A DNA stretch of 64,000 bases, taken from positions 50,600,991 through 50,664,990 of the forward strand of contig NC_092807.1 in NCBI RefSeq assembly GCF_040954645.1, in the 5' to 3' direction. Origin of the DNA: Diabrotica undecimpunctata (lineage: Eukaryota; Arthropoda; Insecta; Coleoptera; Chrysomelidae). A program made the position numbers and the translations under genes. Of this stretch, positions 8,286 to 24,014 are shown piece by piece (within the stretch, counting starts at the first letter, position 1; each line of letters starts with the position of its first letter). The notes beneath the pieces were generated by a model, which did not search any database, was not told the origin of the DNA, and worked only from the letters and a program-made list of their open reading frames with translations.

Positions 8286-9843
8286 CTTCTTCTTCTTCTT
8301 CCTCTTTATAAGCAATTCTGCTTGTTCATTGGTAGATTAATACCTCTATGGAAGGTTATTACTCCATCTTTTGCGCGGTCGTACTTCTTCTGCCGATTGG
8401 TGACTTATCTCTTGCTGTTTTGACGACACGGGTCTCCTCCATTCTGCTGGTGTGGTTATTCCATTCTTTTTTCTATTTTGTGTCCATTCATTTATACAAT
8501 GTACGTTACAATTTCTTCTAATTTCTTCACTTCTCTTTCGATCTCTCAGCGTATTTCCTGTAATTCTTCTCAGTACTGTCATCTCTGCCGTTTCCAGTAG
8601 CCATTGCGTTGTGGCTGTGTCGGTTGTTGTTTCTGAAGCATATGTCATTATTGGTCTTATATTGGCTTTATAAATTCTTGACTTCATCTCAGTGTTAATG
8701 TGTCTGTTTCGCCATATAGTGTTATTAAGGCACCCTGCTGGTCTATTTGCTTTTTGTACTTAATCTCACTTCTTTGTCCAGGTCTCCATAGCTAAAGAGT
8801 GTAATTCCCAGGTATTTTATTTCCATTACTTGTTCAATACTGATGCCATCAATTTCTATTTTACATCTGGTTAGTTCTTTGCTGACTACTATGGTTTTAG
8901 TTTTCGAGTTTTAGAGATGAGATTGTTATATTAAATTCTTTTGCTCTCATGTTAAATCTCTGGACCAGTTTTTGCAGACTATCTCCATCTTGGGCTATCA
9001 ATATTGCGTCGTCTGCGTAACAGAGTATTTTTATTTCTTTTTTTTTTTCATTCTGTATCCTCTTGCTTTGTTAACGCTTTTGATGAGTTTATCCATCATC
9101 AAATTAAAGAGAATGTTCCATTTTGTTACTCTGGTAGATGTGTTCGATAGTTTTTATAATATTTAGGTGAACTTCTCTATTATAGAGAAGATGGATTACA
9201 TCTTTGAGTCTTACTCTGTCAAACGCTTTCTTTAGGTCAATCAGACACAAAAATTCTGGTCTATTATACTCTAGTGTTTTCCCAGTAATTTGCTTTATAA
9301 CGAACATTGCATCTGTACACGATCTTTCACTACGAAAACCCTGTTGTTTATCTGCTAAACTTATTCTCTGATTTATTAACACTTAGTAAAATTTTAGTTG
9401 TAGGTTTTAGCGTAGTATTTAACAAGGTTATACCTCTGTAGTTTTCTGGCTGTTTTTTTATCTCCTTTTTTTAATAGTAGAATTAGTTCGCTCGTTCTCC
9501 ATTCTTCCGGTATTTTATTGTGTTTCATTATTTTATTAATTAATGTTGTTAATTGTTCTGTCATTGCTGCTCTACAATATTTCAGTAATTCGTTTGGTAT
9601 CCCGTCTTTACCTGCTGCTTTTCTTTTCTTCAGGTTTTCAAGTATTTTTTCGAACTTCCTATACATTTATATTAATTTGTTCATTTGTGGTAATTTCTGG
9701 GTTTCCTGTTCTAGCGTCGTTTGTTCTTCCTCTGTATAGAGCTTTAGATAGTTAATCCACGTATCCTTTTCTATGTGTTTTGGTTCTATTAGTTCTTTTA
9801 CCTCCTTAGTTATTAGTTCCTTTACCTGTACCTATTAGTTGTA
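8286..9843 (-). mobile_element. 5'-truncated RTE-like LINE, family L1a, with target-site duplication
   Basis: Read on the minus strand, pieces in different frames give KRKAAGKDGIPNELLKY, IPEEWRTSELILLLKKGD, QQGFRSERSCTDAMF, LIDLKKAFDRVRLKD, CYADDAILIAQD and KYLGITLFSYG. A C-terminal part with RPIMTYASETTTDTATTQ and a basic RPRKRWSNNLP block follows. The minus-strand 3' end is an (AAG)n tail at 8286-8300. A 10-bp direct repeat TAAAAAATAT at 8276-8285 and 9844-9853 flanks it and reads as the target-site duplication. Frameshifts, for example near 9385, make it non-functional. Confidence 0.85.
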
Positions 9844-12244: not shown

Positions 12245-12317
12245 CCCACTGATACCTGATGAACAAATAGATTTTATGCCTGGAAAAAAATGGGAGAGCA
12301 AACTTCAAACCAATAAT
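12245..12317 (+). mobile_element. Older LINE fragment, left half, split by a nested insertion
   Basis: LIPDEQIDFMPGKK is the palm-entry block of a reverse transcriptase (IxxEQxGFxPGKS in intact relatives). It stops at the 11-bp sequence AAACCAATAAT (12307-12317), which recurs at 13262-13272. The frame resumes there, so the two halves were once continuous. Confidence 0.6.
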
Positions 12318-13261
12318 CTTCTTCTTCCTCTTTGTAAGCAATTCTGCTTGTTCATTGGCGGATTAATACCTCTATGGAAGGTTGTCACTCCATCTTTTGC
12401 GAGGTCGTTCGATACTTCTTCTGTCGATTGGTAACTTATCTCTTGCTACTTTGACGACGCGAGTCTCCCCCATTCTGCTTATGTGGTTATTCCATTCTTT
12501 TTTCTATTTTGTGTCCATTCATTTATACACTGTACGTTATATTTTCTTCTAATGTCTTCACTTCTCTTTCGATCTCTCAGCGTATTTCCTGTAATTCTTC
12601 TCGGTACCTCATCCCTGCCGTTTCCAGTAGCCTCTGCTTTGTGGCTGTGTCGGGTCTTGTTTCTGAGGCGTATGTCATTATTGGTCTTACACTGGCTTTA
12701 TAAATTCTTGACTTCATCTGTGTTAATGTATCTGTTTCGCCATATAGTATTATTAAGGCATCCTGATGGTCTATTTGCTTTTTGTACTTGATCTCTCACT
12801 TCTTTGTCTAGGTGTCCATAGCTAAACAGTGTAATTCCCAGGTATTTTGTTTCCATTACTTGTTCAATACTGATGCCATCAATTTCTATTTTACATCTGG
12901 TTGGTTCTTTGCTGACTACTATTGTTTTAGTTTTCTGAGATGAGATTGTCATATTAAATTCTTTTGCTCTTGTGTTAAATCTGTGGACCAGTCTTTGCAG
13001 ACTATCTTCATCTTGGTCTATCAATATTGCGTCGTCTGCGTAACAGAGTATTTTGATTTCTTTGTTTCCTATTCTGTATCCTCTTCCTTTGTTAACGGTT
13101 TTGATGATTTCATCCATGATCAAATTGAAGAGCATGGGGCTCAAGGAATCCCCTTGTCTTATTCCGCTGTCTATTTCTATAGGTTCTGTAAGTTGTCCAT
13201 CCATTTTGTTGTTTTGGTAGAAGTTATCGATAGTTTTTATAATGTTTAGGGGAACTTCTCT
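12318..13261 (-). mobile_element. 5'-truncated LINE (family L1a) nested in an older LINE
   Basis: On the minus strand a 168-codon open segment (13204-12698) reads through GIRQGDSLSPMLFNLIMDEI, CYADDAILIDQDEDSL and KYLGITLFSYGHLD, the catalytic palm and thumb of a non-LTR reverse transcriptase with the YADD box intact. Decayed C-terminal sequence and an (AAG)n tail at 12318-12329 follow. An 11-bp direct repeat AAACCAATAAT flanks the copy, and both flanks belong to another LINE. It is about 80-90 percent alike by eye to the 8286-9843 copy. Confidence 0.88.
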
Positions 13262-13390
13262 AAACCAATAATGAAAGAAGTATATGAATTTAATATTAAA
13301 ACCTATTTGGCCTTTGTCGATTACACTAAAACGTTCGACCGTGTGAAGTGGAGAAAGTTATGGTTGGTATTAGAAACCGACAGTAAAGGT
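13262..13390 (+). mobile_element. Older LINE fragment, right half
   Basis: After the repeated AAACCAATAAT the translation continues with KEVYEFNIKTYLAFVDYTKT then FDRVKWRKLW, the finger/palm block with the first catalytic Asp region of a non-LTR reverse transcriptase. Similarity is lost by about 13390, where another junction must lie. Confidence 0.65.

Positions 13391-17583: not shown

Positions 17584-17588
<5 letters not shown>

Positions 17589-17665
<77 letters not shown>
17589..17665. repeat. (TA)n microsatellite, left flank of the Gypsy insertion
   Basis: A TA run of about 77 bases that abuts the left LTR. The TA array on the other side of the element (23943-24014) is its continuation, so the retrotransposon landed inside a microsatellite. 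The 4-bp target-site duplication would be ATAT, but cannot be told apart from the array. Confidence 0.97.
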
Positions 17666-17671
<6 letters not shown>

Positions 17672-17976
17672 GAATTTATTAAAAGGTTCAATATTTATAA
17701 CACTTACGGATTTAATTTATTTCTTTATTTATATTAACTTATCTGACAATAATTTATTATATCCGTACGTACAAATTCGCGAGCGCGGGTCTTGAGTATT
17801 AACTGGCCCTCCATATAAAAATGTTGTATTTATATACGAAATCCTGATATACTGGAATAGTCGAGAACATCAAGTTGGAGAATTCACCATAATTTGAATC
17901 TAGACTTCCACCGAAATTTCTACAATAAAACAGAATAATTAGTCATAAAAGTTAGGCCAGTATATTTATCGTAACA
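17666..17976 (-). repeat. 3' LTR of the Gypsy element
   Basis: 311 bp, TGTTGTGAAT...ATCGTAACA as read on the plus strand. It matches 23632-23942 base for base by eye. The pol stop codon lies inside it at 17966-17968. Confidence 0.97.
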
Positions 17977-20900
17977 TTGCCCCCCTCTTAAAAGATGGTT
18001 CCTCCTGGAACCTTGTCGGGACTGGAACCGGAACTGTATGCTGGTATCGGCAACTGGACCCTCTTTTACAACTTCCAGTTGTATAAAAATGACAAGGGAC
18101 GGTTTTCTCTCCGCACCAGTAACTATGCGGATTGCAACAGACTAACACCTGGACTTCGGTGTCTTTAAAGATCTCCTCCACCATATTTCGGATAACCCTC
18201 CAATCTAATTGGCGGCACTCCAACTTTGGCATGGCTAACTTTTGCACGTCGGACTCTAGTACGTGCTCTCTCAATTGAAGTAAGGCTTCCCATACATCTC
18301 GGTAGGTAGGTTGGTCACGGGCAGTGTCTTTTGTTACCAGGTAGAAAAGGTAACGTGATGCATCTTGGAGTTTCAAGGTTTTACCGGGAGCTGGCACCTG
18401 GCATTGAAGTTCTGCAACTCGACCAAACTTCCTTCGAAAGACGGATGCCAACCCTGGTGCGTCTTTGATACTGGCCGGGATGGTGAGGGCCAGCGAGTAG
18501 TCATCGGGGAGCGCGAGTAGATCTTGCTTTTCTTCAGTGGTAACACCATGTCTCGCTTTACCGGTACCTCCATAGGCACCCATGAATTCCTCAAACGTGA
18601 GGTCAGACACATCGTGGACTTGGTTTACTTCCACTTCTTCATCTACGTCGTGGTCACCTTCGAAAGACGCCAGCCGGTTATGATGTACTATCATCGGCTT
18701 TCCCTTCGGAATCTTGCTTATTCGGTAGATGACATCGTTGATCTTCTCCATAATGAGGTATGGACCTTCCCAAAACTGCTGCAATTTGGGAGAACAACCT
18801 TTTCGCTTCTTGGGATTATACAGCCATACTTTGTCGTTCTTCTTAAAGCAACCCTTTTCGGCTTGTGTATCGTACCGTTTCTTCATTCGGTCGCTAGCGA
18901 TCTGAAGGTGGGAACGGACCAACTCATGTACATCGTCCATTCTTCTTCGTAATTCGATCACATAATCTTCACCTGCTACATCTTCTCCAGGTCGACACCC
19001 AAACTCTAGATCACAAGGTAGTCGCATTTCGCGTCCGAATAGGACTTTCGCTGGTGTCTGGCCTGTTGATTCGTTAACAGCAGATCTGTAGGCCATTGTG
19101 AAGAACGGAAGGTATTGGTCCCAGTCTCGCTGATGATCGGACACCATCTTTGTCAAATATTTGCCAACTGTCCTATTCATCCGTTCTACCATACCATCAG
19201 ATTGCGGATGATATGCTGTAGTTCTTGTTTTCTTCATGCCTAGTCTATCACATATTCCTTGGAATAGATCGCTTTCGAAGTTCCTGCCTTGGTCACTATG
19301 GATCTCCAAAGGCACTCCAAATCGGCTGATATATTCTTGGATCAACTTATCTGCAACGGTGGCGGCCTTCTGGTCTGGAAGTGCGTAAATCTCGACCCAC
19401 TTACTGAAGTAATCCATTACTACCAGCATGTACTTGCCTCCATTTTCACTTTCTGGAAATGGCCCAGCGATGTCCAAAGCTATTCTTTCAAACGGGCTTC
19501 CAACATTATATTGTCTCATAGGAGCTCTCCTTTTCCGGTGAGGCCCGTTACTCGTAGCACAAATAGTACATTTCTTACACCAGTCTTTTACGTCGTCGGA
19601 ACTGTTCATCCAATAAAACCGTTCCCGAATTCGCTGAAGGGTTTTCCTTACACCAAAATGCCCTCCCGATGGACTGTCGTGTAACTGACGAAGTACTTCG
19701 GCTATTCTGCTCTTTGGGATCACCAACTGTCTTCTTTTCTCTGCACCGTCATCATTTTCCAGGACTCGTTTGAGCAAGCCATCTTCGATGATAAATGAGT
19801 CCCACTGGGCCCAATACGTCTTAACTACTGAGCATAGGTTTGATATTTCCTGCCAAGGTGGTCGACGGTTTTCCTCTTTCCATTTTCGGATTTTCTGTAT
19901 AACTGGATCTCTCTCTTGTTCTTCCCTTATCTTAGTAGGCGTCCAGTCGTCGTTGACAATCGTCGTTCTTAGCACTGCTGCTTCCTTGGATTCCGTTTTG
20001 TTGCAGTGGGAACACTCTGCGGGGCATGGCCTTCTGGAAAGAGAATCAGCATTTCTGTGGCTAACTCCGGCTCGGTGCTCAATCTTAAAATCGTATTCTT
20101 GGAGTCGTTCGATCCACCTGGCTATCTGACCCTCTGGATTTTTAAACTGCATCAACCACTTAAGGGCGGCATGGTCGGTTCGGATTAAAAACTTCCTTCC
20201 ATAGAGGTATTGATAGAAGTGCTCTACTGATTTAACTACTGCTAGAAGTTCTCTTCTCGTGACGCAATAATTCCGCTCAGGTTTTGAAAGAACTTTACTA
20301 AAATATCCGAGGACTCGTTCCTGTCCTCCTTGAATCTGAGACAGCACTCCTCCAATTCCCACATTACTTGCATCCGTATCTAAGATGAACTCTCCTTCTG
20401 GCAGTGGATACCCCAAAATTGGTGCTGTTATTAAATGCTTTTTCAACGTTTCAAAGGCATTTTGGCAGTCTATATCCCAGCGGTATTCTCTTGCTTCCTC
20501 TGTAAGTCGCGTTAATGGCTTAGCGATATCTGCAAACTTCTTAATAAACCTCCGGTAGTAAGTACATAGTCCAAGAAAACTTCTCACTTGATGTTTGTCA
20601 GTTGGTTTTGGCCATTCCTTAATGGAATCGATTTTTCCCTTATCCACGGCCACTCCTTCTTTACTGACTATATGACCCAGATAATTGACTTTACCTTGAA
20701 ATAGCTGGCACTTCTTGGGGTTTAGCATCAATTGGGCAGCTTTAAGTCGATTAAAAACGTTTTCTAAATTCCTCAAATGATCTTCGAATGTCTCCCCCAA
20801 GACGATTATGTCATCTAAATAAACCAGGCATGTTTTCCAAGATAACCCTCTCAACACATTTTCCATAAGCCTCTCAAATGTCGCAGGAGCATTACAAAGT

Positions 20901-22194
20901 CCAAATGGCATAACGTTGAATTGCCACAATCCAGATCCTGTGGTGAAGGCTGTCTTTTCTTTATCGACTGGGTCCATTTCTACCTGCCAGTATCCAGACT
21001 TCAAATCTAAAGTAGAAAACAATTTACTTCCAGCCAATGTGTCCAATGTGTCATCGATCCGAGGCAGAGGATAACTATCTTTCTTGGTAACGTTGTTCAG
21101 CAAACGGTAATCCACACAGAACCTCGTCGTTCCGTCTTTCTTCTTAACCAGGACCACCGGAGAGACCCATGGACTCGTAGAAGGTTCTATCACCCCGTCT
21201 TTCTTCATTTCCTGAACAATCGTTTCAGCTTCCTCTCTCTTCGCCTGTGGTAATCGTCGAGCTGTTTGACGAATTGGCTTAGCATTACCAGTATCAATTT
21301 TATGCTTAACAACGGTAGTTCTTCCCGTCTTTCCTCCTTTCGGTACGAAAATATCACGATACTGCCGAAGAAATTCCCTTAATTTCCTTTTCTCCATCTG
21401 ATTTAGAGACTGTCCTGCAACTGCAACCATTTGGTCGAATTTGTCGTTGGAATTATCAGATGTTGTCGCCTGACGAATTATGGATGTCACAGGTACACAA
21501 GTTCCTACTTTTGTCTCTTTCTTTATGGTCACTGGGTAGTCGTTGACATTGATAAGTCTCACAGGAATTTCTTTAGCCGAAGTCACCAATTCCTTTCCAA
21601 TTATGATTCCACGGCCAACCTCATCGTCGTGGTTCCAAGGCTCCATCATAACAGGTCTCCCTTCGTCTACAATTCCCTGTAGTCGCGCTACTATGATCGT
21701 TTCGCTTCTCGCAGGCACGACTGTATCTTCTGTAATGGCTGCTTGCACAGTGTTGTCATTATGTGGATGGAGAAATACCTCCTCGTTGCCAACTTTGATT
21801 ACCTTATTCTTAAAATCCAATTGGAATCCATGCATATTCATTACGTCCATTCCTAATATAACATCCTCTTCGATGTCAGCAACTATAACAGTATGGACAA
21901 ACTTTTCTGCCCCAATTCCCAATTGTACCTGGATTTCTCCATGAATGTTGGCATTTTCACCTGTAGCGGTCCGAAGTCGTAACCTCGTTGGTAACAGTTT
22001 CTTTCGGCTGTTTATAACTGTCGGGCGTATAATGGTTCTGGTCGCTCCGGTATCCACCAACAACGTATGCTTTTTACCATTTATGTCTCCATCTACATAT
22101 ACACTATCTTCACGACATTTCAAAGAAGCTATTAGTATGAGAGGGTCTTTGGAAAAGTTCTGGGTCGAAGCTGCCCCCCTAAGGCTGACCCGTT
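17966..22194 (-). CDS. pol: Gypsy Pol: protease, RT, RNase H, integrase, macrodomain-like region, CCCH finger
   Basis: The frame is open from the gag stop region to 17966. Residue numbers here count from the codon at 22123, the first listed start-like codon (TTG); true synthesis is probably by -1 frameshift from gag. Protease DTGA is at 24-27. RT spans about 275-490 with TLDLKSGYW (Asp 373) and YLDD (435-438). RNase H has DTDAS (582-586), Glu 625, Asp 650 and Asp 693. Integrase has H815/H822/C849/C852 and the triad Asp 884, Asp 944, Glu 980 (35 residues between the last two), then GPY at 1120-1122. A TARG1/OARD1-like macrodomain region follows at about 1205-1330 with GLASVFRRKFGRV, RYLFYLVTKDTA and QPTYRDVW. 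The loop that carries the catalytic Asp in TARG1 looks shortened (ECRQLDW). Last is a C-x7-C-x5-C-x3-H finger at 1344-1362. The last codons overlap the polypurine tract and run into the LTR. Confidence 0.95.
17977..17991 (-). promoter_or_regulatory. Polypurine tract
   Basis: On the minus strand AAGAGGGGGGCAA directly precedes the LTR (TGTTACG...). This is the plus-strand primer site expected next to the 3' LTR. It lies within pol and codes part of the last residues (KRGA). Confidence 0.85.
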
Positions 22195-23553
22195 CTAGTT
22201 TTCCTGATGGTGAGTTTCTTGATTTGCGTCGTACCTAGGGTGCTTACAGGAGCTTCGTACGTGTCCTATTTCGCCACAATTCCAGCATCTGATGGTCTTC
22301 GTTTTCTTGTATGTCATGCTTTTCATCATATTAACGAGCTGGTCAAGTTTATCTTCATCTCCTTCCTCTTTTACAGTCCTAACTTTACTGTACCCGCCAG
22401 AGGCCTGCGTAGCTGACTCGTATTCGAGGGCGGCGGATAGGACATCAACCAGCGTCTTGTGACGAGCTAATCGCAGTGTTCTCTGCATTTCATGATCACG
22501 AAGACCATCAATAAACGTTTGAACGGCCAATTTTTCCATCATGTCTTCGGGAGCTGTTGGATAAGCATATCGTACTAATCTGGCAATATCTACCTCATAT
22601 TCTTGAAGAGCCTCATCTTTCTTCTGTCTACGATTTTTAAGCTGTGACTGATATACATGCTCCAAATGTTCGTGGCCATATCGCATATTTAACCTCTTCT
22701 TCAGTTGTTCGAAATCATCGGTCTCCTCTACGGCTATGGTCTGAAGCACATCTAAGGCATCTCCTCGAAGGGCGATAGTCAGGTTTACAGCCTTTTCTTT
22801 TTCAGACCATCCATTTGCTCTTGCGGCTGATTCGAACTGTTTCATGTAGTTGTTCCATGATGATTTTCCGTCGAAAGTTGGGACTTTAACATGAATAGAA
22901 CCTCCACTTCCTTCAAATTTCGGCCGTGTCTCCAACTTAAATTTCGTCTCGTCTTCTTTTATCTCCACTGTAATCGGATTGTTACCTCTCTCTGCTGTCC
23001 CTGTTTCCTCCATCTTCTTTTCCATCTCTTTCCATATCTTTTCTTCGAAGGCTAACATATCGGCAGCAACTTGGTTTTTTAATGAAGATATTCTATCGTC
23101 CAGGGCAGACATCTCAGAAGTGACTTTAGAGATTTCCGAAGAGATGTTAGCAGAGACTTTGCTTTCCAGCGAAGAAATCTCGTTAGAAACTTTGTTTTCT
23201 AATGAGGCGATGTCGCCGGAAACTTTTGAAATATCGCCAGAAACTTTGTTCTCTAATGATGCGATGTCACCAGAAACTTTGGCTACATCACCAGAAACTT
23301 TGGCTACATCACCAGAAACTTTGGCTACATCAGAAGAAACTTTCGAAATATCGTCAGAAACTTTGTTTTCTAATTTCGAAATCGACGAGATAACAGCATC
23401 TTCAAATATATAAGTCTCTGGATCTAGTCCTTCTTCTAGCAAAGCGTTCTTTAGTCGTTGGACTAACTCAGCCTTTTTTCCGGTAGAAGCTAATTCTCTG
23501 TCTTCGAGATGTCTTCTTAAATTCGTCACTGTGAGCTCATAAATCGTAGCCAT
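22195..23553 (-). CDS. gag: Gypsy Gag with SAP-like domain, coiled coil and CCHC zinc knuckle
   Basis: 452 codons from ATG 23553-23551 to TAG 22197-22195; the frame opens two codons earlier with a GTG, but the ATG is the better start. Residues about 5-40 (LTVTNLRRHLEDRELASTGK then LVQRLKNAL) match the SAP DNA/RNA-binding helix-extended loop-helix. Residues about 55-165 are heptad repeats of the KVSGDVA/SLENKVSGDI type, a predicted parallel coiled coil. The capsid-like region runs about 215-390 (FDGKSSWNNYMKQFESAARA then LRGDALDVLQTI, and a YEVDIARLVRYAYP block). A single CCHC knuckle, CWNCGEIGHVRSSC, lies near the end. Gag assembles the particle and binds the RNA. The stop is preceded by the A-rich heptamer GGAAAAC, and pol continues in the -1 frame. 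Confidence 0.95.
   Translation of the reverse strand: MATIYELTVTNLRRHLEDRELASTGKKAELVQRLKNALLEEGLDPETYIFEDAVISSISKLENKVSDDISKVSSDVAKVSGDVAKVSGDVAKVSGDIASLENKVSGDISKVSGDIASLENKVSNEISSLESKVSANISSEISKVTSEMSALDDRISSLKNQVAADMLAFEEKIWKEMEKKMEETGTAERGNNPITVEIKEDETKFKLETRPKFEGSGGSIHVKVPTFDGKSSWNNYMKQFESAARANGWSEKEKAVNLTIALRGDALDVLQTIAVEETDDFEQLKKRLNMRYGHEHLEHVYQSQLKNRRQKKDEALQEYEVDIARLVRYAYPTAPEDMMEKLAVQTFIDGLRDHEMQRTLRLARHKTLVDVLSAALEYESATQASGGYSKVRTVKEEGDEDKLDQLVNMMKSMTYKKTKTIRCWNCGEIGHVRSSCKHPRYDANQETHHQEN
22198..22204 (-). promoter_or_regulatory. Candidate -1 ribosomal frameshift site
   Basis: On the minus strand the heptamer G GAA AAC sits immediately before the gag TAG. The pol frame (-1 relative to gag) is open through this point and on to protease. 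The heptamer is A-rich but not the textbook X XXY YYZ, so slippage here is an inference from frame layout. Confidence 0.5.
23190..23350. repeat. 21-bp minisatellite coding the Gag heptads
   Basis: Near-identical 21-bp units containing CAGAAACTTTGGCTACATCA follow one another around 23269-23335, with more diverged units on both sides. Each unit codes seven residues (KVSGDVA), so unit gain or loss keeps frame and coiled-coil register. Confidence 0.85.
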
Positions 23554-23629: not shown

Positions 23630-23631
23630 TT

Positions 23632-23938
23632 TGTTGTGAATTTATTAAAAGGTTCAATATTTATAACACTTACGGATTTAATTTATTTCTTTATTTATAT
23701 TAACTTATCTGACAATAATTTATTATATCCGTACGTACAAATTCGCGAGCGCGGGTCTTGAGTATTAACTGGCCCTCCATATAAAAATGTTGTATTTATA
23801 TACGAAATCCTGATATACTGGAATAGTCGAGAACATCAAGTTGGAGAATTCACCATAATTTGAATCTAGACTTCCACCGAAATTTCTACAATAAAACAGA
23901 ATAATTAGTCATAAAAGTTAGGCCAGTATATTTATCGT

Positions 23939-23942
<4 letters not shown>
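23632..23942 (-). repeat. 5' LTR of the Gypsy element
   Basis: 311 bp, the same sequence as 17666-17976. It serves as promoter and transcription start region for minus-strand gag-pol RNA. AATAAA occurs only in the plus-strand reading (CAATAAAACAG), so the element's own poly(A) signal is not obvious. Confidence 0.97.

Positions 23943-24014
<72 letters not shown>
23943..24014. repeat. (TA)n microsatellite, right flank of the Gypsy insertion
   Basis: 72 bases of TA directly after the LTR; the other half of the interrupted array at 17589-17665. Confidence 0.97.

Follow-up and report, generated by a model that had tools for sequence, protein, structure and literature searches.

This locus raises the question of what role a TARG1-type macrodomain and a CCCH zinc finger could play at the end of the Pol protein of a Gypsy retrotransposon. 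The window, by which we mean the whole 64,000-nucleotide stretch of Diabrotica undecimpunctata DNA that was analyzed, carries on its minus strand a Ty3/gypsy LTR retrotransposon with uninterrupted Gag and Pol frames, which we call family A. It has LTRs, a Gag with a knuckle, and the protease-RT-RNase H-integrase order of that group, and all of its features given below lie on the minus strand. LTR comparison places the 5′ LTR at 23631..23942, identical over its 312 nt to the 3′ LTR at 17665..17976. The Gag ORF (22195..23553, 452 aa) contains a SAP domain, a retrotransposon gag match, and a CCHC knuckle. The Pol ORF (17966..22123) runs without interruption for 1385 aa through protease, RT, RNase H, integrase, macrodomain, and CCCH finger, and its stop lies within the 3′ LTR, so that the last Pol residues are encoded by the LTR edge. 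The protease, RT, and RNase H pieces were assigned by their 78, 92, and 94% identity to P0009, a protein whose Pfam matches include RT (PF00078). The integrase part (18596..19783) comprises an H2C2 finger, an rve core, and a p58 C-terminal domain ending at Pol residue 1152, and the approximately 233 residues beyond it form the tail, or extension, that concerns us here. Many family A copies read as if Gag and Pol were in one frame, whereas in the window copy the two are separate. Open frames through the tail in family A fall into two common lengths, approximately 1420 and approximately 1780–1843 residues, with some shorter.

The tail holds two domains, and both had been called in an earlier note on this DNA, which placed a TARG1/OARD1-subfamily macrodomain at the Pol end and a CCCH finger at residues 1344–1362. 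The macrodomain (18131..18547, residues ∼1193–1331) has TARG1 as its closest match both by sequence and by predicted model, and its fold and closest sequence match put it in the TARG1/ALC1-like class; as a detector, Pfam PF01661 misses or underscores this subfamily. The finger (18038..18094) has the spacing C-x7/8-C-x5-C-x3-H and matches PF00642 at 29.0 bits against a cutoff of 20.5, while its predicted model is of poor quality. Among solved structures, the finger is most closely related to the poly(A)-signal factor CPSF4, at E 1.2e-5 for family A and 2.4e-4 for the second family described below. Neither the tail (E up to 1) nor the integrase part (E up to 0.1) gave a match to a Chromo domain, and thus the element is not a chromovirus. 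With P0025 as the query, viral contigs yielded no confirmed relative. The closest predicted viral structures are those of Kadipiro virus VP8 (E 3.5e-13) and a thrips flavi-like virus (E 5.6e-10), both insect-associated RNA viruses, and as judged from these models TARG1-like domains may have been acquired by several unrelated insect elements.

The earlier note had asked for a genome-wide look at related Gypsy copies, and the extension proved to be present well beyond the window copy. Searching the window's genome with the extension DNA returned at least 40 copies, each 100% identical, of which 32 (window included) reached full score and 8 scored slightly lower. A search of the same genome with P0001, an A-type protein, scored at least 131 family A copies, 129 of them without a stop; these searches score the best candidates only, so the copy counts are lower bounds and are biased toward intact copies. 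Because its LTRs are identical and its copies are identical, family A must have multiplied recently.

A second large Gypsy family in this genome, family B, also carries macrodomain and CCCH finger (L085:1333-2049 (+); L080–L158). It emerged from a search with the TARG1-like P0007, which scored 150 places; the 80 examined comprise one host-like gene (L079) and 79 family B copies, the latter (19 loci and 60 regions) being our family B sample. Aligned to a single B copy, every one of the 79 reaches at least 91%; their extension is approximately 41% identical to that of the window, and their macrodomain resembles TARG1 by sequence at E 2.2e-28. All four CCCH ligands are present in 71 of the 75 copies covered there. 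When an extension from the longhorn beetle Aromia moschata was used as the query, 203 database proteins matched, and all 120 listed are from that species. The Aromia macrodomain resembles TARG1 by sequence and by model, and a CCCH motif follows it in 100 of the 120 listed proteins; in the two of the remaining 20 that were inspected fully, the sequence at that place differs. A one-off fusion is therefore rejected, since the extension occurs in family A copies, in family B, and in Aromia. The presence of the module in both Chrysomelidae and Cerambycidae shows age or horizontal transfer. Two public Diabrotica virgifera gene models, P0005 and P0006, contain pieces of the extension, and one of them is named as a tachykinin receptor; these pieces are probably element exons within the gene models.

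The single host-like relative, at L079:997-3048 (-), has TARG1 as its best match (E 1.4e-36), retains the two catalytic residues, and begins with a lengthy N-terminal portion. On visual inspection, the first macrodomain may be followed by a second, degenerate one. In a tree of ten macrodomains, those of the elements group together with L079 adjoining, at a support of 83/91 that is under the tree tool's mark for a firm branch. Taken with the shared linker and finger, the tree is a hint that the element macrodomains go back to a single capture, and it is only a hint because host-type sequences supply just three of its rows and one branch is long.

The active site differs among the carriers in a way that bears directly on function. 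The earlier note was right that the conserved Lys is present and that the loop with the catalytic Asp is shortened. Lys1265 (18329..18331) aligns with TARG1 Lys84, and its equivalent is retained in all six A-type rows (window, P0001–P0004, and P0009). At Cys1303/Arg1304 (18212..18217), where TARG1 has Gly-Leu-Asp125, the alignment places a two-residue deletion, by which Asp125 is absent from the five A-type rows that cover the position (5/5); 38 of 38 further family A copies read LECRQLDW at that loop. Since the Asp125 equivalent is absent, we do not class the window copy as a TARG1-type hydrolase, even with its Lys84 equivalent in place. Family B has the reverse pattern, with Lys84 changed to Arg in 77/79 copies and Asp125 retained in 76/79, and the listed Aromia proteins retain Lys84 (119/120), Asp125 (119/120), and His32 (120/120), although none of these counts is independent, the copies within A, B, and Aromia each being near-copies of one another. 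As the alignments read, the residue of the TARG1 catalytic pair that is lost in family A is not the one lost in family B, and the Aromia copies look hydrolase-competent. Asp20 and His32, which belong to the ADP-ribose pocket, are retained in 6/6 and 5/6 A-type rows and in 74/79 and 79/79 family B copies, respectively. The window copy carries Leu in place of His32 and is also altered at TARG1 positions 40–42, and for this reason ADP-ribose binding may be gone in family A.

The earlier note had also argued that an intact frame means recent constraint. That reasoning was wrong, since no conclusion on constraint can be drawn from an intact frame when the two LTRs of the copy are identical. We instead compared changes seen in one copy (singletons) with changes shared by at least three copies, using N/S counts, an omega-like ratio, and a Fisher test, with p values that are nominal and apply to each single test. 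Copies were chosen by protein score, which favors intact ones, and this bias is common to both classes of change; 13 of the 79 family B copies have a stop and 14 have gaps in the extension. Across the family B extension, singletons are near neutral (192 N/80 S, ratio 0.85, 6 stops) and shared changes are not (50/46, 0.38, 2 stops; p 0.0017). The family B macrodomain behaves likewise, with singletons at 90/43 (0.75, 3 stops) vs shared changes at 23 N/26 S (0.32, no stop; p 0.015), and raising the transition weight from 2 to 4 gives ratios of 0.88 and 0.37. From these shared changes, the data point to purifying selection on the family B macrodomain, and neutral decay is disfavored for that family. 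No difference was seen for the family B finger (16/8 vs 4/4, p 0.43), for the macrodomain in the 19 longest B loci alone (29/21, 0.49, vs 7/9, 0.28; p 0.39), or for family A, where the comparison among 39 copies, window included, is low in power (15/12, 0.45, vs 8/9, 0.32; p 0.76). As a yardstick, the integrase side in 18 family B loci gave 0.52 for singletons and 0.29 for shared changes (p 0.13). Between the window and P0009, identity is 78% in protease, 92% in RT, 94% in RNase H, and 87% in the integrase core vs 71% in the integrase C-terminus, 69% in the macrodomain, and 61% in the finger, and on this comparison the tail evolves faster than RT or integrase.

That faster change, together with the lack of a significant selection signal in family A alone, is what one would expect if the tail were a transduced host fragment without function. 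The fold and the CCCH finger are nevertheless retained in A, B, and Aromia, and in the B extension nonsynonymous changes make up a smaller part of the shared changes than of the singletons, so we regard a functionless passenger as very improbable. Our own tentative reading, which we hold at a little under an even chance, is that the macrodomain derives from a single capture of a host TARG1-like gene and was retained behind the integrase as a binding module, and not for Lys-Asp chemistry. Families A and B lost different catalytic halves and kept the fold, and binding is therefore what would have been retained. Against this binding module stands Aromia, where the whole catalytic pair fits an enzyme. 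The tail might strip ADP-ribose placed by host PARPs from element proteins, RNA, or cDNA ends, with a changed mechanism in A and B. According to PMC7050489 and PMC9411070, the Lys suffices for hydrolysis by the DarG macrodomain, SCO6735 hydrolyzes although it has neither residue, and the substrates of TARG1 include nucleic acid ends that carry ADP-ribose. Pair loss thus does not prove loss of activity, and family A retains the Lys, like DarG. The mechanism of a bacterial paralogue may not transfer, however, the loop is altered in family A, and A and B lost different residues of the pair; such an eraser seems to us possible but rather unlikely.

It is also conceivable, though again we think it unlikely, that macrodomain fold and finger bind RNA or protein for genome packaging or priming with ADP-ribose uninvolved. 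The relation of the finger to CPSF4 and the altered pocket residues of the window copy fit such a scaffold, but almost every B and Aromia copy retains Asp20 and His32.

In the binding-module reading that we favor, the tail would be an integrase-borne reader. Chromodomains behind the integrases of other Gypsy elements, the chromoviruses, read histone marks, and we prefer such a reader because they sit at the same place; the macrodomain immediately follows the p58 C-terminal domain of the integrase. After Gag-Pol cleavage, the integrase would retain the macrodomain and CCCH tail. The macrodomain would then bring the integration complex to ADP-ribosylated chromatin or proteins, or to another ligand of the old pocket, and candidates for what it reads are ADP-ribose, PAR, and a novel ligand. 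The finger may hold element RNA, since its nearest solved relative comes from an RNA-binding factor, or cDNA. A more specific and doubtful proposal is that the macrodomain, having lost the TARG1 catalytic pair in two different ways in two families, serves as an integrase targeting reader of poly- or mono-ADP-ribosylated chromatin, for example at DNA-break sites, and so is the ADP-ribose counterpart of a chromodomain.

An (AT)n array surrounds the window element (17588–17665 and 23943–24014). Among 20 other copies examined, 19 had a readable left edge, and two of these 19 (L012 and L020) are in an (AT)n array; in L027 a short (AT)n array lies some bases from the edge. Targeting of (AT)n by the tail was thus rejected as a general rule, on a sample that is small. 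Copy edges end in NTAN in 14/19, counted by eye, and a 4-bp duplication is present in each of the two copies for which both edges were found. Elsewhere in the window, repeat copies at 8291–9179 and 12317–13262 are 86–96% identical in pieces, and a reverse-strand ORF in one of them (12698–13204) resembles a LINE reverse transcriptase.

A recently multiplied leaf-beetle retrotransposon lineage, also present in a longhorn beetle, thus bears a host-type domain related to ADP-ribose. Whether ADP-ribosylation limits or guides retrotransposition can thereby be put to the test, and the lineage supplies natural variants with different halves of the TARG1 active site. Among the matches listed from the open-licence PMC literature, we recognized none that reports a Gypsy element with a macrodomain, which is weak evidence of absence. 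What is new here is the combination of a TARG1-type macrodomain and a CCCH finger in Gypsy Pol; macro domains in retroelements and a Gypsy-captured eraser were already known.

Human TARG1/OARD1 (C6orf130) is of the same ALC1-like class, but the element domain sits in Pol, is followed by a CCCH finger, and has an incomplete catalytic pair in A and B. DarG is the bacterial antitoxin of DarT, and the element's match to it is far under the 250-bit cutoff of that family. Fish endogenous retroviruses carry a macro domain, according to PMC4977317, which cites Basta et al. 2009; they are likewise retroelements with this domain, although the fish sequences are described there as having additional open reading frames. 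Orchid Gypsy elements have fixed an AlkB m6A demethylase, a host domain with activity in vitro, as described in PMC9289625. They too are Gypsy elements with a host domain for a reversible mark, but it occupies a separate ORF, and the hosts are plants. Chromoviruses (cf. PMC2864245) resemble the window element in that a reader domain captured from a host occupies the corresponding position in their Pol; theirs is a chromodomain, whereas the window element has a macrodomain and a CCCH finger.
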